Origin: Sulfurimonas marina
GTDB lineage: Bacteria; Campylobacterota; Campylobacteria; Campylobacterales; Sulfurimonadaceae
DNA: 64,000 nucleotides
Assembly: GCF_014905095.1 (NCBI RefSeq)
Contig: NZ_CP041165.1
Location: 682,001-746,000, forward strand
Direction: 5' to 3'
The translations under genes and the position numbers were made by a program. Shown here piece by piece: positions 2,764 through 9,757 of the stretch (positions are counted from its first letter, which is position 1; every line of letters starts with the position of its first letter). The notes beneath the pieces are model-generated. The model was not told the DNA's origin, searched no databases, and worked only from the letters and a program-made list of their open reading frames with translations.

Positions 2764-5277
2764 TTATTTTGTTAAAAATTTGTAAATTTCATCAGCATTA
2801 TTACATATATTATTTTGTTTTTCCATTAAAAAACTATCTCTAACTTTAAATTTACTCGAATGTATTTTTGCACTGACGATATTAATGTTTAGTTGCTCAA
2901 ATTTATGCATCACGTAGGCAAGAAGTCCGATCTGATTTTTGGTTTGTATATTGATTTCAGCATCGGTTAGAGAATGATCAAAATCGATAGTAATATCACT
3001 TTTTTTAATCTCTATATCGCGTAGTTTTACCTCTTTAGACATATCGAAAGCATCCTCAACCATCGTTTTTATATCTTCAATTATGGTTGGATCAACATTG
3101 TATTTAAAATCAATTTTAAAATATTTGACATTATCAAAAAGGGTGAAAATCTCCATTGAAGCAACATCAAGATGTGAAAGTGTTGAGAGTAAATAGCCTA
3201 CATTCAAAGGAATTCTTCTAAATATCTCGATAGTTAAAGAGTTCTCATTTTTAATATTATATGTATACTCTTTTGTTTCTTGTGCTTGCTGTGCTATTTT
3301 TATAATATTTTGCGGTGTATTTTTAAAGAAAAACAGGTTAGAAACAACAGACAGGATTTTATTTTGCAACACTCTTGGAAGTGTTTTAAACTCTTCGAGA
3401 TTTTTTACCTTTTTCTCTATACTAATACGTTTTTTCGCATCTGTAATACGCTCTTTGTTCTGTGCAACCTCTAAAGCACTCGTGTAGAGTTCATAAAGGA
3501 GTTTTGCACTAAAAGCCGTATATGTTTTTCCTCCAACTCCGTCAACTCCGTTTATATCTGCATATGTAAGCACATAAAGAAGTTTGAGGTTCTTTTCATC
3601 ACCTACATTTGACATAAATTTATAAAGTGTTTTTTCATTATGGATATTGTCTTTAAAAGCAACGGAACTCATAAGTATATGGTGTTTCACAAGTGTAATA
3701 GCACGTGAAGTGTCTTCTCCGTCAAGCTGCATTTTTTTTGCAAATTGTGCTACAAGCTTCGCTCCCACTTCACTATGGTCTTGTTTTCTCCCTTTCCCGC
3801 TATCGTGTAAAAAGACAACTATTTTAAGTAAAAACTTCTCTTTTTCATCCATTGCATCATATAAACCTTTGATAAAAGGCTCTTTAATATTTTCAAGTGC
3901 TTCTATACATTTTACAGAGTGTAGATCTACAGGGTAATGATGATAGCCGTCAAATTGCGGAAGATGCAGTACTTTTTTAAAATTAGGAAACAGTTCATGC
4001 AGTATTCCCGCATCATAAAAAAGTTTTAAAAATGAATAGATATGCTCTTTTTTCAAAAGCTTTTTAATCAGGGTATATGTTTTTTGTCTGAGTGGATGGG
4101 AAATAGTAGTATAGGTAAACTGATTTAAAAAACCGGCATCAAATTTATAGTCTTGATCCTCTAAATTAATGAGTAACTCTAAAAGTTCATTTATAGGTCT
4201 CGGTTTGAGATTGTATGATGCAAAAATTCTATCTTCACGTTTATAGATACCTTTTTGAATTCTACATTTTCGGAACTCTGTAATGTTATGCTTATCGTAG
4301 ATAAAACTACGTACCATTTTTTTCACAAATATTTGAGTAAAGTTATTGACACGCCAACCTGCTTCAAGCACTTTAGTTGAAAGTTTTTTCTGATTTGAAA
4401 ATCCTAAAAGTTTTGTCACTTGTGGTATATGTTCAAGTCTAAGTGTGTCTTCTTGTTTCCCTGTTATAAGGTGCAGGGCACTTCTTACTCTAAAAAGCAG
4501 TTCAATAGCGATTCGATACTCTCTATACTCTTCCTCGGTAAATAGCTCACCGCTTAACTCTTTTATAGATTCGACTCCGTAAATGGTTTTAGCTACCCAA
4601 TAGATCAGCTGTGAATCACGAAGTCCGCCGACACCCTCTTTGATATTCGGTTCCATTGAGATTGAGAACCTTTTTCTTCTAGCCTGTGCTTCTTCTATCT
4701 TATTTAATATAAACTCTTTTTGCTGGTAGAGTCTCATCTTCTGAAGTTCGCGCGTTGTCGCATGCCAAGTAAAAGAGGAACCACAGATAAAGCGTGATTC
4801 CATTAAAGAAGTTCTGATTGTAATATCTTCATTTGAAGCTTTGAAAAGATCTTGTACCTCATGTACACGGTGTCCGAGTTTAAGCCCTGCATCAAGAGCC
4901 AAATAGAAAAGTTTTTCAATGATAAGTTCAGTGTTGTAGCCATGAACATCTTCATAGACGATCAAAAGATCGATATCGCTGTGGACACATAGTTGTTCCC
5001 GCCCGTAACTTCCCAGTGCAACAACGGCAATAGGGATAGAACTTTTCATAGGGAGATAGTTTCCAAATGTACGTCTGAGTACGGTTTTGTACATTAGTTC
5101 GATAATAGAATCAAGTTTCTTTGTATGTCGTACAAGAAAATCTTTCCCTTGGTTTTTTTCAAAAAGCTGATCTAAAGAGTCCTTATATTCTTTTATGTAC
5201 TGTTTAAAAAGTTTTGAAAGTTCGAAGTCTGAACCATTGTTTTCTATAATGTTTTCAATCTGTAATAATATATCCAT
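2764..5277 (-). CDS. glnD: Bifunctional PII uridylyltransferase/uridylyl-removing enzyme
   Basis: GlnD adds UMP to PII proteins and removes it in response to glutamine. In order it has a nucleotidyltransferase domain with GSYGREQ and HSDIDLL (about residues 90-110), an adjoining helical domain, an HD phosphohydrolase domain with FLHDSGKG and a following DHSE, and C-terminal ACT-type glutamine-binding segments (about 660-837). The frame is open to 5328, but the start chosen is the ATG at 5277 (MDILLQIENI), giving 837 residues. A TATAAT lies at 5290-5285, so a longer form would start upstream of the likely transcript. No Shine-Dalgarno is visible before this ATG, so the message may be leaderless. 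glmS follows directly. Confidence 0.93.
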   Translation of the reverse strand: MDILLQIENIIENNGSDFELSKLFKQYIKEYKDSLDQLFEKNQGKDFLVRHTKKLDSIIELMYKTVLRRTFGNYLPMKSSIPIAVVALGSYGREQLCVHSDIDLLIVYEDVHGYNTELIIEKLFYLALDAGLKLGHRVHEVQDLFKASNEDITIRTSLMESRFICGSSFTWHATTRELQKMRLYQQKEFILNKIEEAQARRKRFSISMEPNIKEGVGGLRDSQLIYWVAKTIYGVESIKELSGELFTEEEYREYRIAIELLFRVRSALHLITGKQEDTLRLEHIPQVTKLLGFSNQKKLSTKVLEAGWRVNNFTQIFVKKMVRSFIYDKHNITEFRKCRIQKGIYKREDRIFASYNLKPRPINELLELLINLEDQDYKFDAGFLNQFTYTTISHPLRQKTYTLIKKLLKKEHIYSFLKLFYDAGILHELFPNFKKVLHLPQFDGYHHYPVDLHSVKCIEALENIKEPFIKGLYDAMDEKEKFLLKIVVFLHDSGKGRKQDHSEVGAKLVAQFAKKMQLDGEDTSRAITLVKHHILMSSVAFKDNIHNEKTLYKFMSNVGDEKNLKLLYVLTYADINGVDGVGGKTYTAFSAKLLYELYTSALEVAQNKERITDAKKRISIEKKVKNLEEFKTLPRVLQNKILSVVSNLFFFKNTPQNIIKIAQQAQETKEYTYNIKNENSLTIEIFRRIPLNVGYLLSTLSHLDVASMEIFTLFDNVKYFKIDFKYNVDPTIIEDIKTMVEDAFDMSKEVKLRDIEIKKSDITIDFDHSLTDAEINIQTKNQIGLLAYVMHKFEQLNINIVSAKIHSSKFKVRDSFLMEKQNNICNNADEIYKFLTK

Positions 5278-5284
5278 GGTTTTA

Positions 5285-5290
5285 ATTATA
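5285..5290 (-). promoter_or_regulatory. Likely -10 box for glnD-glmS
   Basis: A perfect TATAAT on the minus strand has its last base 7 bases before the glnD ATG. Transcription would start at or next to the A of the start codon. It is back to back with the promoter of the 5333 gene. Confidence 0.6.
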
Positions 5291-5303
5291 TACCAAATTT
5301 TGC

Positions 5304-5309
5304 TATAAT
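5304..5309 (+). promoter_or_regulatory. Extended -10 box for the aldolase operon
   Basis: TGCTATAAT is a textbook extended -10. Start of transcription near 5316 gives a leader of about 17 bases to the ATG at 5333, which argues against the in-frame TTG at 5321 as the start. Confidence 0.65.
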
Positions 5310-5332
5310 CATCTAAAAAATTGGACAAAAAG

Positions 5333-5620
5333 ATGGCAATTACAAAAAGAGTGACATTTATAGCAAAAGAGGGTTGTGAAGAGAAAATGAAAGAACTGCT
5401 CTCTGCAATGGTAGTACCTAGTAAAGCTGAAAAAGGTTGTGTTTTTTACGAGATCGTACAATATGAAAATAATAGAAGAAAATTTATGGCGATAGAAACA
5501 TGGGCGGATGAAGCAGCACTTGACGGGCACAGAGCCTCTGCACATTATGCTGTGTACAAATCATCGTATGAACCGTATTGTGAAAAAAAATATACAGATG
5601 AATTAGAGGTTTTAGGATAA
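5333..5620 (+). CDS. Antibiotic biosynthesis monooxygenase-fold protein, LsrG-like
   Basis: A small dimeric ferredoxin-like alpha/beta-barrel protein of 95 residues (ABM/YgiN/LsrG family). Typical features are the opening beta strand VTFIAKEGCEEKMKELL, a central KGCVFYEIVQ strand, then FMAIETWADEAALDGHRAS and HYAVY. Family members are quinol or small-ring monooxygenases, or isomerases such as LsrG, which rearranges phospho-AI-2. The sequence alone does not separate these. The context favours an LsrG-like role, since a class II aldolase starts 3 bases later and a close LsrK relative follows. The ATG at 5333 is chosen over the TTG at 5321 because of the promoter position and a GGA at a suitable distance. 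Confidence 0.8.
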   Translation: MAITKRVTFIAKEGCEEKMKELLSAMVVPSKAEKGCVFYEIVQYENNRRKFMAIETWADEAALDGHRASAHYAVYKSSYEPYCEKKYTDELEVLG

Positions 5621-5623
5621 AAA

Positions 5624-6787
5624 ATGAAAAATTTATGGAATGAAAAGAACGCTTCAAATTGTAAAGATGATTTAGATTTTAGAGTTTATACATCAAACCT
5701 TTTAGGAAAAAACGACACTCTTGTACTCCATGGCGGTGGAAATACTTCAGTTAAAGTGGACGATCTGTTATATGTAAAAGGGAGTGGTTGGAACCTTGTG
5801 GATATTGAAAGAGAAGGTTTTTCTCCTGTTAAGATGGACGCACTTTTAGATATGGCGAAGTTGGAGAGTTTAAGTGATAGTGATATGGTTACCCTGCAAC
5901 GCAGAGCTATGACGGATCAAGATGCGCCAAACCCATCGGTTGAGGCAATTTTACATGCACTTATCCCTTACAAATTTGTTGATCACACACATGCAGATGC
6001 AGTTGTAACTATCTCTAACTCTGTTAAAGGTAAAGAGTATATTGAAAAGTTGTATCCAAATTTTTTGATCGTCGATTATGTGATGCCAGGATTTGAGTTA
6101 GCGCATCAGATTTATGAGATGACAAAAGAACTTGACTGGGATTCGATTGAAGGGATTATTTTACATAATCACGGGATCTTTACATTTGATAACGATGCTA
6201 AAAAATCTTACGATAAAATGATCGAAGCTGTCACAAAAGCGGAAGAATTTTTAGATGAAAATGCAGAACTCGATATTCAAAGAAGTTACGAACACAGTGG
6301 TTGTGATATTGCAAAAATTACTAAAGTATTTTCGAAATACAAAGGGTATGAAGTTCATCTTAATATCAATCAATCACCATTAGCATCTTTTTACGCTTCA
6401 CAGCCGAATTTAAAAGAGTTTGCATCTCGTGGAGTATTGACACCTGAGCATATAATTCGTACAAAACGTGTCCCACTTGTGATGGAAGATACAAATCTTG
6501 AAGCGGGAATTGAGAATTACATAAAAGAGTATGAAGAGTATTATATGCGCTATGAAGATGGCGAGATGATGCTAAATCCTGCACCAAATTATATGATTAT
6601 CAAAAATTTAGCGGTGATCTCTTTTGGAGCAACGAAAAAAGAGGCTGATATCGTTAATGATATAGTTGAACATACTATGAAAGCGGTATTACAAGCTGAC
6701 AAGTTAGGCGGTTATGTAAGCATTAGCGAAAAAGATAGTTTTGCTATGGAGTATTGGGAATTAGAGCAGGCTAAACTAAAAAACTAG
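5624..6787 (+). CDS. Class II aldolase/adducin-domain protein
   Basis: A zinc-dependent class II aldolase of 387 residues, resembling the aldolase half of bifunctional RhaD/YuxG-type proteins but without the dehydrogenase half. It has HGGGNTSVK (about 36-44) and KGSGWNL for phosphate or substrate binding, and putative zinc ligands in HTH (121-123) and HNHG (181-184). The family cleaves phosphorylated ketoses to DHAP and an aldehyde. It starts 3 bases after the LsrG-like gene and is followed, across a 216-base gap holding two hairpins, by an LsrK-like kinase. I infer that it splits the product of that kinase. The substrate, either phospho-AI-2-derived or a 5-deoxypentulose phosphate, is unknown. 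Confidence 0.85.
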   Translation: MKNLWNEKNASNCKDDLDFRVYTSNLLGKNDTLVLHGGGNTSVKVDDLLYVKGSGWNLVDIEREGFSPVKMDALLDMAKLESLSDSDMVTLQRRAMTDQDAPNPSVEAILHALIPYKFVDHTHADAVVTISNSVKGKEYIEKLYPNFLIVDYVMPGFELAHQIYEMTKELDWDSIEGIILHNHGIFTFDNDAKKSYDKMIEAVTKAEEFLDENAELDIQRSYEHSGCDIAKITKVFSKYKGYEVHLNINQSPLASFYASQPNLKEFASRGVLTPEHIIRTKRVPLVMEDTNLEAGIENYIKEYEEYYMRYEDGEMMLNPAPNYMIIKNLAVISFGATKKEADIVNDIVEHTMKAVLQADKLGGYVSISEKDSFAMEYWELEQAKLKN

Positions 6788-6813
6788 TTTGCTTTTTTAC
6801 TCTTGCCGCATTA

Positions 6814-6874
6814 AAAGAGACTTTTTTACAGAGCAAATCCTCCCGTTGGTCTGAGTCTGTAAAAAAATCTCTTT
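6814..6874 (+). repeat. Hairpin E1 of the conserved-loop repeat family
   Basis: The 19-nt arms AAAGAGACTTTTTTACAGA (6814-6832) and TCTGTAAAAAAATCTCTTT (6856-6874) pair at 18 of 19 positions, with one C/A mismatch. They enclose a 23-nt loop (6833-6855) that starts GCAAATCCTCCC and ends GGTCTGAG. The loop recurs almost unchanged in E2 and E3, while the stem does not. It lies 27 bases after the aldolase stop. It has no run of T after the stem, so it is not a standard terminator. Confidence 0.9.
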
Positions 6875-6912
6875 CAATGCTATATTGTAATCATTTAAGA
6901 ACTCTAGCAGTA

Positions 6913-6989
6913 GTAGTTTTTAGAATTGTATTTCGTAGGCTCAGACCAAAGGGAGGATTTGTCCTATTAAATATAATTCTAAAAATTAC
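6913..6989 (-). repeat. Hairpin E2 of the conserved-loop repeat family (opposite orientation)
   Basis: The arms 6913-6933 and 6969-6989 pair over 21 bp with only two G/T wobbles. Then come a two-base internal loop and a 4-bp inner stem TAGG/CCTA. The remaining 23-nt loop (6940-6962), read on the minus strand, starts ACAAATCCTCCC and ends GGTCTGAG, matching E1 and E3. The right arm contains TATAAT (6972-6977), the likely -10 of the downstream kinase gene, so the hairpin overlaps that promoter. Confidence 0.9.
6972..6977 (+). promoter_or_regulatory. Possible -10 box for the LsrK-like kinase
   Basis: TATAAT lies 26 bases before the ATG at 7004, inside the right arm of hairpin E2. No clear -35 is seen. 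Confidence 0.4.
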
Positions 6990-7003
6990 GGAAAAAGTCT
7001 AAA

Positions 7004-8581
7004 ATGGATAATAATATGGACAAATACTTACTTGCAATAGATGCCGGAACAGGAAGTGTCCGTGCAGTACTTTTTGATACTTTAGGAAATCAGATCGCAG
7101 TTTCTCAAAGAGAATGGACACATCTTGAAGAGGAAGGTGTACCTAACTCTATGAGTTTTGATTTTCAAACGAACTGGCAGCTTACGTGTGAGTGTATTTC
7201 AGATGTGATCACTTGTTCATCTATTGATCCAAAAGATATATTAGCCCTTAGTGCTACAAGTATGCGCGAGGGGATTGTTCTTTATGATAAAGAAGGTAAT
7301 GAACTTTGGGGTGTGGCAAATGTTGATGCACGTGCTTCAAAAGAGGTGGAGTATCTGAAAAATAATTTCGAGGGTTTAGAGGAGAAGTTTTACCAGGAAA
7401 GTGGACAAACTTTTGCTCTCGGTGCCTTGCCACGTCTTCTGTGGCTGAAAAATAATAGAGCTGAAGTTTATGAAAAAGTTGCCTCTATCTCTATGATTGG
7501 AGATTGGATACTTGCAAAACTCTCAGGTGTGATCGCATCTGATCCAAGTAACGGTGGGACTACAGGGATTTTTAGTTTACAAGATCGCACTTGGGATGCC
7601 AATATGGCGAGTGAAATTGGTCTAAAAGATACAATCTTTCCTCATGTATTAGAAGTTGGTGAAGTGGTTGGCACTGTAACACTGGAAGCTTCAAAGCAAA
7701 CACGACTTGACCAATCTACTAAAGTAGTAATGGGTGGGGGTGATGTGCAGCTTGGAACAGCTGGACTTGGCGTAGTGAAAAAGGGGGATGTAGCAGTTCT
7801 AGGCGGGAGTTTTTGGCAGCAGGTAGTGAACATTAGTTCATCTGTTAAACCACCTAAAGATATGGGATTACGTGTCAATCCTCATGTTGTAAATGGTCTT
7901 TCACAAGCTGAGGGAATCACTTTTTTTTCAGGGCTTATTATGCGATGGTTTCGGGATGCTTTTTGCGATCTTGAAAAACTGGAAGCTGAAAAAAGCAGAA
8001 AAGATGTGTATGCGATTATGGAAGAAAAAGCGATGGAGATCCCTGCGGGTTCATATGGAATATTACCTATCTTTTCAGATGAAATGAAATATGGAAAATG
8101 GTACCATGCATCTCCGAGTTTTTTAAATCTTTCTCTTGATAGTGAAAAATCAAACAAGTACTCTATGTTTCGATCATTAGAAGAAAATGCGGCGATAGTT
8201 TCAAGCATTAACTTGGAAAATATTAAAAAATTCAGCGGTGTTGAGTTTAAAGAGATCGTATTTGCAGGTGGAGCGAGTAAGGGGTCTCTTTGGTCACAGA
8301 TACTCGCTGATGTAACGGGATATACGGTAAAAATCCCAAAAGTGACTGAAGCTACTGCTCTTGGTGCTGCTATGGCTGCAGGTGTTGGAGCGGGAATTTA
8401 TAGCTCTTTGGTGGAAGCGTCTGAGAAGTTAGTAGAGTGGGATAAAACTTTGACACCGAATTTTGAGAACAAAAAAGTTTATGACGAGCTAAAAGAAAAA
8501 TGGCAAAGTGCTTATGAAGTACAATTAAAGCTAGTTGATGATAATATCACGACTTCAATGTGGAAGGCTCCGGGAGTTTAA
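7004..8581 (+). CDS. lsrK: FGGY-family kinase, close relative of autoinducer-2 kinase LsrK
   Basis: An FGGY sugar kinase of 525 residues that resembles enterobacterial LsrK nearly end to end: DAGTGSVRAVLFD (ATP phosphate loop), SMREGIVLY, NVDARAS, VMGGGDVQLG, GGSFWQQVVN, RVNPHVV, MRWFRDAFC, PIFSDEM, FAGGASKGSLWSQILADV, and the C-terminal TTSMWKAPG. LsrK phosphorylates AI-2 (DPD). The likeness is much closer than general FGGY homology, so the symbol is given for the family; activity on DPD is inferred. No lsrACDB transporter, lsrR or lsrF is in the window. The ATG at 7016 is an alternative start with a better-spaced GGAT. The gene lies between hairpins E2 and E3. Confidence 0.85.
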   Translation: MDNNMDKYLLAIDAGTGSVRAVLFDTLGNQIAVSQREWTHLEEEGVPNSMSFDFQTNWQLTCECISDVITCSSIDPKDILALSATSMREGIVLYDKEGNELWGVANVDARASKEVEYLKNNFEGLEEKFYQESGQTFALGALPRLLWLKNNRAEVYEKVASISMIGDWILAKLSGVIASDPSNGGTTGIFSLQDRTWDANMASEIGLKDTIFPHVLEVGEVVGTVTLEASKQTRLDQSTKVVMGGGDVQLGTAGLGVVKKGDVAVLGGSFWQQVVNISSSVKPPKDMGLRVNPHVVNGLSQAEGITFFSGLIMRWFRDAFCDLEKLEAEKSRKDVYAIMEEKAMEIPAGSYGILPIFSDEMKYGKWYHASPSFLNLSLDSEKSNKYSMFRSLEENAAIVSSINLENIKKFSGVEFKEIVFAGGASKGSLWSQILADVTGYTVKIPKVTEATALGAAMAAGVGAGIYSSLVEASEKLVEWDKTLTPNFENKKVYDELKEKWQSAYEVQLKLVDDNITTSMWKAPGV

Positions 8582-8596
8582 ATACTTGCTCGGGAG

Positions 8597-8668
8597 TTCT
8601 TTTAACCCTATCTCTTAGAGGACGAATCCTCCCTTCGGTCTGAGTCTCACGAGATAGGCTTAAAAGAA
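8597..8668 (+). repeat. Hairpin E3 of the conserved-loop repeat family
   Basis: The arms TTCTTTTAACCCTATCTC (8597-8614) and GAGATAGGCTTAAAAGAA (8651-8668) pair at 17 of 18 positions. A short inner stem (618-621 with 645-648, plus 8000) leaves a 23-nt loop (8622-8644) starting ACGAATCCTCCC and ending GGTCTGAG. The loop matches E1 and E2; the stem is unrelated to theirs. It lies between the kinase stop and mqnE. Confidence 0.9.
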
Positions 8669-8722
8669 TAAAAAAATTTTGAAATACACTTGAAGAAAAA
8701 GTAGAAAATGGTAAGGAAAAAA

Positions 8723-9757
8723 ATGGATAGAATAGATTTCGATACAGCACTAAAACTTTACGATGAAGATTTGTTTATACTCGGTGAGATGGCAGATAAG
8801 AAACGTAAAGAACTTCATGGCAATAAAACATACTTCAATATTAACCGTCATATAAATCCAACAAATATTTGTGCAGATGTATGTAAATTTTGTGCTTATG
8901 CCGCAAATAGAAAAAATCCTAACCCTTATACTATGACTCATGAAGAGATTATGGAAATCGTAGACAAGATCGTTGAAGATGGTGTGAAAGAGGTGCATAT
9001 CGTCTCAGCTCATAATCCGGATACTGGTATAGAGTGGTACCTTGATATTTTTAGAAAGATTAAAGATAAATATCCACAGCTTCATGTAAAAGCATTGACA
9101 GCCGCAGAAGTTGACTTTTTATCTCGCCATTATGGTAAAACTTACGATGAGATCTTAGATATGATGGTAGAAGCGGGTGTGGACTCTATGCCTGGTGGTG
9201 GAGCCGAGATTTTTGATGAAAAGGTACGCGATTATATCTGTAAAGGGAAAGTAACTTCCGATCAGTGGATTGAAATCCATAAAAAATGGCATGAACGCGG
9301 TAAAAAATCAAACGTGACTATGCTGTTCGGTCATGTAGAAAATCGCGAACACAGAATCGATCATATGATGCGTATTCGTGAGCTGCAGGATCAAACAGGT
9401 GGATTTAACTGTTTTATTCCGCTTGTATATCAGACTGAAAACAATTATCTGAAAATTGAGCATCCGATCACTGCCGATGAAGTGCTCCGTACTATGGCGA
9501 TCTCTCGTTTAGTATTAGACAATGTACCGAATTTAAAAGCGTACTGGGTGACTTCAACGGTGAACTTGGCACTTGTTGCTCAAGAGTTTGGTGCAAATGA
9601 CCTTGACGGTACTATCCAAAAAGAGTCTATTAACTCTGCTGCGGGTGCGAAGAGTGCAAACGGGATTGAGCTTGATGATTTCGTAGGGCTTATTAAAGAC
9701 AGCGGTTTTACACCGGTTGAGAGAGACAGTATCTATAACGAGATTAAGGTTTGGTAG
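8723..9757 (+). CDS. mqnE: Aminofutalosine synthase (radical SAM)
   Basis: MqnE joins the 5'-deoxyadenosyl radical to the chorismate-derived enol ether to give aminofutalosine, an early step of the futalosine route to menaquinone used throughout Campylobacterota. The radical SAM cluster motif is CADVCKFC (CxxxCxxC, about residues 51-58) after NINRHINPTNI. VKEVHIVSAHNPD, SMPGGGAEIFD and NVTMLFGHVE are typical of MqnE/MqnC proteins. The length of 344 residues is normal. The ATG at 8723 is preferred to that at 8708 because AAGGA stands before it at good spacing. The paralogue MqnC is the main alternative. Confidence 0.88.
   Translation: MDRIDFDTALKLYDEDLFILGEMADKKRKELHGNKTYFNINRHINPTNICADVCKFCAYAANRKNPNPYTMTHEEIMEIVDKIVEDGVKEVHIVSAHNPDTGIEWYLDIFRKIKDKYPQLHVKALTAAEVDFLSRHYGKTYDEILDMMVEAGVDSMPGGGAEIFDEKVRDYICKGKVTSDQWIEIHKKWHERGKKSNVTMLFGHVENREHRIDHMMRIRELQDQTGGFNCFIPLVYQTENNYLKIEHPITADEVLRTMAISRLVLDNVPNLKAYWVTSTVNLALVAQEFGANDLDGTIQKESINSAAGAKSANGIELDDFVGLIKDSGFTPVERDSIYNEIKVW

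Follow-up and report, generated by a model that had tools for sequence, protein, structure and literature searches.

An LsrK-type kinase and a class II aldolase occur together in Campylobacterota and may form a variant route of autoinducer-2 breakdown

We analyzed a 64-kb stretch of the Sulfurimonas marina genome (contig NZ_CP041165.1; G000:C1:682001-746000 in our numbering), referred to here as the window; the host genome is 2.26 Mb. The window contains three genes for an ABM-fold protein, a class II (metal-dependent) aldolase, and an LsrK-type kinase. The compound 4,5-dihydroxy-2,3-pentanedione (DPD) is the precursor of autoinducer-2 (AI-2). We conclude that the cluster is probably a catabolic route for DPD, most likely for DPD made by LuxS in the cell, and that the aldolase probably replaces LsrF in it. 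Three observations carry this conclusion: the kinase belongs to the LsrK family, no LsrF is detectable, and the kinase and aldolase genes are coupled. The whole trio, or parts of it, was found again in many genomes, and the genes are therefore conserved.

The kinase matched the NCBIfam model for autoinducer-2 kinase (NF008187) with 866.3 bits, relative to an equivalog cut-off of 528, over residues 5–524 of its 525. Its C-terminal end, SMWKAPG, matches SLWKAPG of Escherichia coli LsrK. A resemblance to LsrK over the whole length, including this end, had been claimed in a prediction made from the window's letters alone (the original prediction), and these results bear it out. The next best model was xylulokinase (194.9 bits); fuculokinase scored 146, glycerol kinase 139.7, and rhamnulokinase 61. 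Among solved structures the best match was E. coli LsrK (5ya0, 633.8 bits); a glycerol kinase came second with 107.2. Identity with E. coli LsrK amounts to 54.7% across 519 residues.

In a tree of 28 rows, the window kinase, 19 kinases from the phylum, and E. coli LsrK were on one branch (support 95/97), apart from E. coli AraB, GlpK, XylB, RhaB, FucK, LyxK, and YgcE, all seven of which are very long-branched. The tree was made without the kinase of locus L063, which had not been called as an open reading frame (ORF). The kinase grouped with LsrK, as the original prediction supposed, and not with xylulokinase or glycerol kinase. We collected 114 kinase loci (34 plus 80, partly overlapping), in 113 of which the kinase ORF was called. 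When 114 kinase rows were compared (the window included, some genomes represented twice), 155 of the 530 positions of E. coli LsrK were kept in at least 98% of the rows, and 42 of these 155 residues were absent from all seven other E. coli FGGY kinases. Of at least 580 confirmed relatives of the kinase, the best 80 were all of Campylobacterota type, on Sulfurimonas, Sulfurovum, Sulfurospirillum, Arcobacter, and similar contigs; further relatives may occur in other phyla. The family assignment is strong: judged by family, the kinase is a genuine LsrK, and activity on DPD is predicted for it.

The kinase scores also bear on the possibility that the cluster serves catabolism of a rhamnose- or fucose-type sugar, with a kinase, an aldolase, and a mutarotase-like small protein. 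The aldolase does match RhaD_aldol-ADH (198 bits), and RhaM is a small protein of a fold related to that of the ABM protein; however, the kinase reached only 61 bits with rhamnulokinase and 146 with fuculokinase, and the small protein matched only ABM in Pfam. We rejected the rhamnose and fucose pathways on the kinase scores and regard such a role as highly improbable.

Each part of the cluster was searched for in 298 genomes of the phylum, with limits of E ≤ 1e-60 for the kinase and E ≤ 1e-40 for the aldolase. The kinase was present in 35 of the 298 genomes, representing 15 of 58 genera, and the aldolase was present in exactly the same 35. Even the weakest accepted matches (1.6e-187 for the kinase and 2.6e-78 for the aldolase) cleared these limits by a wide margin. 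At least six genera (g1, g9, g32, g43, g49, and g55) were mixed, with the kinase and aldolase agreeing in every genome. The ABM protein was matched in all but one of the 35 kinase genomes (34), and in nine other genomes only at 31–34% identity. Pairs lay no more than 2.5 kb apart in 20 of 35 genomes for kinase and aldolase, 22 of 35 for kinase and ABM, and 26 of 35 for aldolase and ABM. The remaining 15 kinase-aldolase pairs were on different contigs in ten genomes, 3–19 kb apart in four, and 1.2 Mb apart in one. The kinase and aldolase are thus coupled by co-occurrence. No credible LsrF was found in the 298 genomes: 14 gave partial matches, the best with 34.9 bits over half of the protein, and the E. 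coli LsrF query had no match in the window's genome. The original prediction had proposed an LsrK-like kinase with an aldolase in place of LsrF, and this proposal is supported by the kinase tree, by the lack of a credible LsrF, by the identical distributions of kinase and aldolase, and by luxS, which is present and, in one genus, adjacent to the cluster. Among the open-licence PMC papers listed in our searches, none described LsrK alongside a class II aldolase that takes the place of LsrF, and none dealt with LsrK in Sulfurimonas.

The aldolase matched Pfam Aldolase_II (69.4 bits). Over its whole length it resembles the aldolase half of the bifunctional rhamnulose-1-phosphate aldolase/dehydrogenases (TIGR02632/PRK08324), but it lacks their dehydrogenase half and scores under the curated cut-offs (460 bits with the PRK08324 models, where the cut-off of the best model is 627). 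The ORF ends at residue 387, and the C-terminal short-chain dehydrogenase domain is absent. Residues E107, H121, H123, and H183 were the same in every one of 55 aligned relatives; from the chemistry of FucA and RhaD we take E107 to be the catalytic Glu and the three His to bind the metal. The predicted structure (mean pLDDT 90.9) matched, over residues 11–218, Thermoplasma 3m4r (Z 30.5), with L-fuculose-1-phosphate aldolases at Z ≤ 19.2 and deoxyribose-phosphate aldolase 6btd of B. thuringiensis at Z 17.8.

The ABM protein had a single Pfam match, to ABM (52.8 bits), and its AlphaFold model (mean pLDDT 94.5) has a dimeric alpha+beta barrel fold. This model matched E. coli LsrG 3qmq with Z 15.8 (rmsd 1.5 Å over 95 residues, 18% identity) and 2gff with Z 15.3, and was closer to 4zos (Z 17.0) and PA3566 (1x7v, Z 16.9, 32% identity). 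Five other ABM entries scored at least as high as 3qmq, so the likeness of fold does not single out LsrG. By sequence the protein and E. coli LsrG share 24.6% identity across 69 residues. The weakest assignment in the cluster is that of phospho-DPD isomerase, a candidate role to which gene position and co-occurrence point.

In E. coli, LsrG and LsrF convert phospho-DPD to dihydroxyacetone phosphate (DHAP) and acetyl-coenzyme A (acetyl-CoA) (PMC8016206, in excerpt). The route that we propose has four steps, with substrate, isomerization, and products as would be expected from the genes present. In the first, Pfs and LuxS, the genes for which are both in the genome, would convert S-adenosylhomocysteine to homocysteine and DPD. 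The LsrK-type kinase would then make DPD-5-phosphate. In the third and weakest step, the ABM protein, acting like LsrG, would isomerize DPD-5-phosphate to 3-hydroxy-2,4-pentanedione-5-phosphate (P-HPD). Finally, the class II aldolase would take over from the CoA-dependent thiolase LsrF and split the C2-C3 bond of P-HPD, with DHAP and a two-carbon unit as products. A gem-diol hydrate of P-HPD could undergo retro-aldol cleavage to acetate and DHAP, a reaction that needs neither CoA nor a redox step. As the 4-keto form of a 5-deoxypentulose-1-phosphate, P-HPD differs from it only by the keto group next to the methyl, and compounds of the latter kind are what the DHAP shunt cleaves. Formation of acetate and DHAP from hydrated, isomerized phospho-AI-2 was at one time put forward as a working model for LsrF itself (PMC2728841, in excerpt). 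If this route is correct, a class II aldolase would carry out the terminal step of AI-2 breakdown, and a single aldolase family would connect AI-2 degradation with the DHAP shunt.

The fate of the dehydrogenase domain bears on the last step. A rival possibility is that the 4-keto group of P-HPD is reduced, by the fused dehydrogenase or, in copies that have lost it, by a separate reductase, to 5-deoxypentulose-1-phosphate, from which the aldolase would then give DHAP and acetaldehyde. The aldolase family is one of fusions with a short-chain dehydrogenase, and in a tree of 55 selected aldolase rows 10 have the dehydrogenase intact, two of them (L115 and L144) with the kinase in the locus; 41 rows lack it and 4 have a degenerate one. 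The aldolase step of the DHAP shunt, moreover, yields (methylthio)acetaldehyde, an aldehyde (PMC10986504, in excerpt). Near the kinase, however, the domain is mostly gone. The kinase loci held 84 aldolase ORFs, of which 77 were complete (six others touch a contig or locus end and one is split), and among these 77 the dehydrogenase was missing in 72, shortened and degenerate in 3, and full and intact in 2. The 4 degenerate copies in the tree lack the glycine-rich and YxxxK motifs, and at least four separate degeneration events are needed to account for them. In addition, inspection by eye of the 30 families most often seen across kinase operons in several loci turned up no reductase. We consider reduction unlikely. 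Under hydrolytic cleavage of P-HPD, the dehydrogenase would be missing in most kinase-linked aldolases because the product is already acetate and a fused dehydrogenase would have no work.

The same aldolase family also occurs in the DHAP shunt, which comprises Pfs, MtnK, MtnA, and Ald2 and serves 5-deoxyribose and methylthioribose. The two routes are alike in having a class II aldolase step that forms DHAP from a 5-deoxyketopentose phosphate; they differ in that here the kinase is LsrK rather than MtnK, the genome has no MtnA match, and the expected substrate is one oxidation level higher. The family aldolase lies with mtnA in five kinase genomes (G126, G163, G186, G200, and G287), and in all of these except G200 a full aldolase/dehydrogenase fusion is contiguous with both MtnK and MtnA; all four of these operon copies keep the dehydrogenase intact. 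These four genomes have no second, kinase-linked aldolase, and each of the 35 kinase genomes has a single aldolase match. The ABM and kinase genes are still no more than 1 kb apart in G126, G163, and G287, and 4.6 kb apart in G186. One aldolase therefore seems to serve both the AI-2 and the DHAP-shunt routes. In G210 an intact fusion stands alone, with MtnA on another contig. In G221 and G292, mtnK-mtnA is accompanied by a separate 202-aa gene, placed in the class II aldolase type by weak matches only, and the family aldolase is retained within 100 bp of the kinase.

These arrangements would also fit a kinase that acts on 5-deoxyribulose or another deoxypentulose, with the cluster as a dispersed DHAP shunt. 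Relatives of the aldolase are found in the mtnK-mtnA operons of the phylum and, on Ensifer and Rhizobium plasmids (L181 and L182), about 4 kb from mtnK. Nevertheless, genomes with the shunt have a separate MtnK; an MtnA query was positive in 14 of the 298 genomes, not including the window's; and the kinase scores 866 bits as an LsrK as opposed to 195 bits with the next model. We judge a dispersed shunt to be improbable. The original prediction had offered deoxysugar catabolism as an alternative to AI-2; that part is weakened, in that the kinase step in genomes with the mtnK-mtnA route falls to a separate MtnK. Returning to the DPD route, we suggest tentatively, and with less than even confidence, that in these bacteria the ribose carbon of S-adenosylmethionine leaves through a single, shared metal aldolase. 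This enzyme would split P-HPD, derived from the DPD of LuxS, hydrolytically to acetate and DHAP and in some genomes also cleave 5-deoxyribulose-1-phosphate and methylthioribulose-1-phosphate, with AI-2 a recycled by-product and not a signal.

Operons of the mtnK-mtnA-aldolase/dehydrogenase type were seen in Campylobacterota at L166, L167, L157, and L158. On a Shinella plasmid (NZ_CP093338.1; L180 5053-13261), a true LsrF (68.5% identical to that of E. coli) is beside an aldolase/dehydrogenase (44.7% identical); a sugar ABC transporter is also encoded there, and the kinase is most similar to LyxK (33%), not to LsrK. This operon may offer a different way into P-HPD, in which a deoxypentulose phosphate is oxidized. 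As a counterpart of the cluster we rejected it, on the grounds of its true LsrF and its LyxK-like kinase.

The origin of the DPD was considered in terms of luxS and of uptake. The window's genome contains luxS, one of the genes that the original prediction had proposed to look for, and a methylthioadenosine/S-adenosylhomocysteine nucleosidase (Pfs/MTAN; 303.8 bits vs. 169). All 35 kinase genomes have luxS, compared with 254 of the 298 overall (hypergeometric probability 0.0026, kinship ignored). In one genus (g5; 3 of 3 genomes), a gap of about 100 bp separates luxS from the divergently oriented aldolase-ABM pair, and the kinase gene is convergent. Judged by eye, luxS is near 2-oxoacid oxidoreductase-like genes in this genus and in the window's genome, and in the latter the trio is not between them.

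No match to E. coli LsrA, B, C, D, R, or F was found in the 64-kb window by tblastn at E ≤ 1e-4, in agreement with the original prediction of no Lsr transporter or LsrR there. In the window's genome the permease family of LsrC, LsrD, and RbsC (PF02653) had 0 matches, where 12 of 14 control genomes were positive; other uptake systems were not searched. The LsrR-type regulator family (PF04198) likewise had 0 matches in this genome, with 4 of 14 controls positive. The genome has a solitary RbsB-like periplasmic protein (L150 6492-11002; G000:C1 about 992-997 kb).

The cluster might nevertheless scavenge or quench the AI-2 of neighbors, as in the enteric lsr system, where LsrK traps imported AI-2 (PMC3386761, in excerpt), and the RbsB-like protein might be taken as a component of uptake. 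Its gene is flanked, however, by a chemoreceptor-like gene and a 792-aa sensor-like gene (by eye), and the protein looks like part of a sensor rather than of a transporter, a candidate sensor of sugar or AI-2. Against scavenging there is also the lack of any match to the permease family just described. In the loci of the best 80 of at least 580 relatives, many of them incomplete, LsrB, LsrC, LsrR, and LsrF were unmatched at E ≤ 1e-8, and the LsrA matches (23–28% identity) look like general ABC ATPases. We regard scavenging as rather improbable. Because no LsrR-type regulator and no LsrCD-type permease were found in the genome, the purpose of the proposed DPD route would be recovery of a glycolytic intermediate and removal of a reactive dicarbonyl, not signaling.

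The cluster shares with the lsr system of E. coli and Salmonella an orthologous kinase, an ABM-fold protein in the expected LsrG role, and DHAP as the expected product. It differs in having a class II metal aldolase where the lsr system has the CoA-dependent thiolase LsrF, and an ABM protein under the LsrG cut-off. Since searches of the window's genome revealed neither LsrF nor an LsrCD-type permease or LsrR-type regulator, we class the cluster as a variant of AI-2 catabolism and not as a complete lsr system. It has long been asked whether, in most bacteria, LuxS and AI-2 serve as a language or arise as a by-product of metabolism. The results suggest that some bacteria recycle the AI-2 "signal" as waste carbon. 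A LuxS-bearing lineage that has the AI-2 kinase, and in whose representative genome we found no Lsr-type permease or LsrR-type regulator, makes the by-product view directly testable.

Several observations weigh against a LuxS-fed DPD route ending in hydrolytic cleavage. The ABM protein had only 25.8 bits with the LsrG equivalog model (NF007791), far under the cut-off of 135, and among solved structures it is nearest by sequence to PA3566 (32%). We rejected it as an LsrG equivalog and kept the LsrG role as a candidate. The original prediction of LsrG-like and aldolase genes directly upstream of the kinase was correct as to the presence of both genes; "LsrG-like" was borne out by the fold, but by the sequence only weakly. 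The ABM protein had no match in one of the kinase genomes, G200. Loss of the dehydrogenase tracks the route imperfectly because of four exceptions: the intact domain in kinase-linked L144 (adjacent) and L115 (5 kb away), a third fusion beside the kinase in L067 that is truncated by the contig end, and the G200 aldolase, which is beside mtnA (no MtnK there) and has a degenerate dehydrogenase. A stand-alone reductase may be present elsewhere in the genome. The link to the shunt is not general, for the kinase-less G053, G057, G145, and G219 have MtnA without the family aldolase. Separate contigs in fragmented assemblies are no proof of distance between kinase and aldolase. Finally, luxS is so common that its presence in 35 of 35 genomes is only mildly informative, and it was adjacent to the cluster in none of the loci of the best 80 of at least 580 relatives. 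Because the set of luxS and oxidoreductase-like genes exists without the trio, the adjacency in genus g5 looks like one insertion beside luxS and not shared ancestry, and it probably arose only once, within that genus.

The gene for MetK was in the kinase operon in 20 of the 114 loci. It encodes a second MetK, 41–47% identical to the other MetK of those genomes. A kinase-less genome of the same genus, G252, has metK2-mqnE without the trio, a further point against a connection with the methyl cycle. We did not accept metK as proof of a methyl-cycle operon, the adjacency being partly positional, and counted it as suggestive only. The order metK2 upstream of mqnE was seen at L151 8182-9381 and also at L037, L047, L048, L051, and L055, with or without the kinase cluster. 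A two-gene cassette (an ATPase-like gene and one for a 176-189 aa protein; L038 9627-11107 and L169 2119-3641, with related ORFs in L092, L100, and L134) separates the kinase gene from mqnE, or mtnA from the aldolase gene, and has a mobile or defence look by eye.

A cupin gene was in the kinase operon in 9 of the 114 loci. At L041 (9241-9615) it is close after the kinase, and homologues were seen at L045, L063, L084, L085, L105, L110, L111, L129, L144, and L145; the cupin-bearing contigs are of Arcobacter, Sulfurospirillum, and some of Sulfurovum type. The small cupin beside the kinase was considered as a replacement isomerase and found inconsistent with that role, the ABM gene being present also in six of eleven cupin loci.

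The coordinates of the three genes are given in Table 1; all three ORFs lie where, and on the strand that, the original prediction had placed them. The ABM gene starts with an ATG, and the mechanical ORF opens at 5321. The aldolase gene starts 3 nt past the ABM stop, and the kinase ORF follows the aldolase gene after a gap of 216 nt. From the starts of close homologues, the real start of the kinase is probably the second ATG, at 7016.

Table 1 Genes of the cluster in the window
Feature	Coordinates	Strand	Family or model
ABM-fold protein, 95 aa, candidate phospho-DPD isomerase (LsrG role)	5333..5620	+	Pfam ABM
Class II (metal-dependent) aldolase, 387 aa, candidate LsrF replacement	5624..6787	+	Pfam Aldolase_II, PRK08324 models
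LsrK-type autoinducer-2 kinase, FGGY family, 525 aa from 7004	7004..8581	+	NF008187

A short repeat has three copies, found only here in the 64-kb window: 6836-6855 (+), 6940-6959 (−), and 8625-8644 (+). Two of the three are inverted relative to each other, and both are inside the aldolase-kinase gap. In two close relatives (G282 and G143) the kinase gene begins immediately after the aldolase stop. Because the gap is absent from these relatives and holds the inverted repeat copies, it looks inserted. A search of 5200-8760 with Rfam gave four matches, all under the gathering scores, which were treated as chance. In G282 (L033) a related hairpin-like sequence is located downstream of the kinase.

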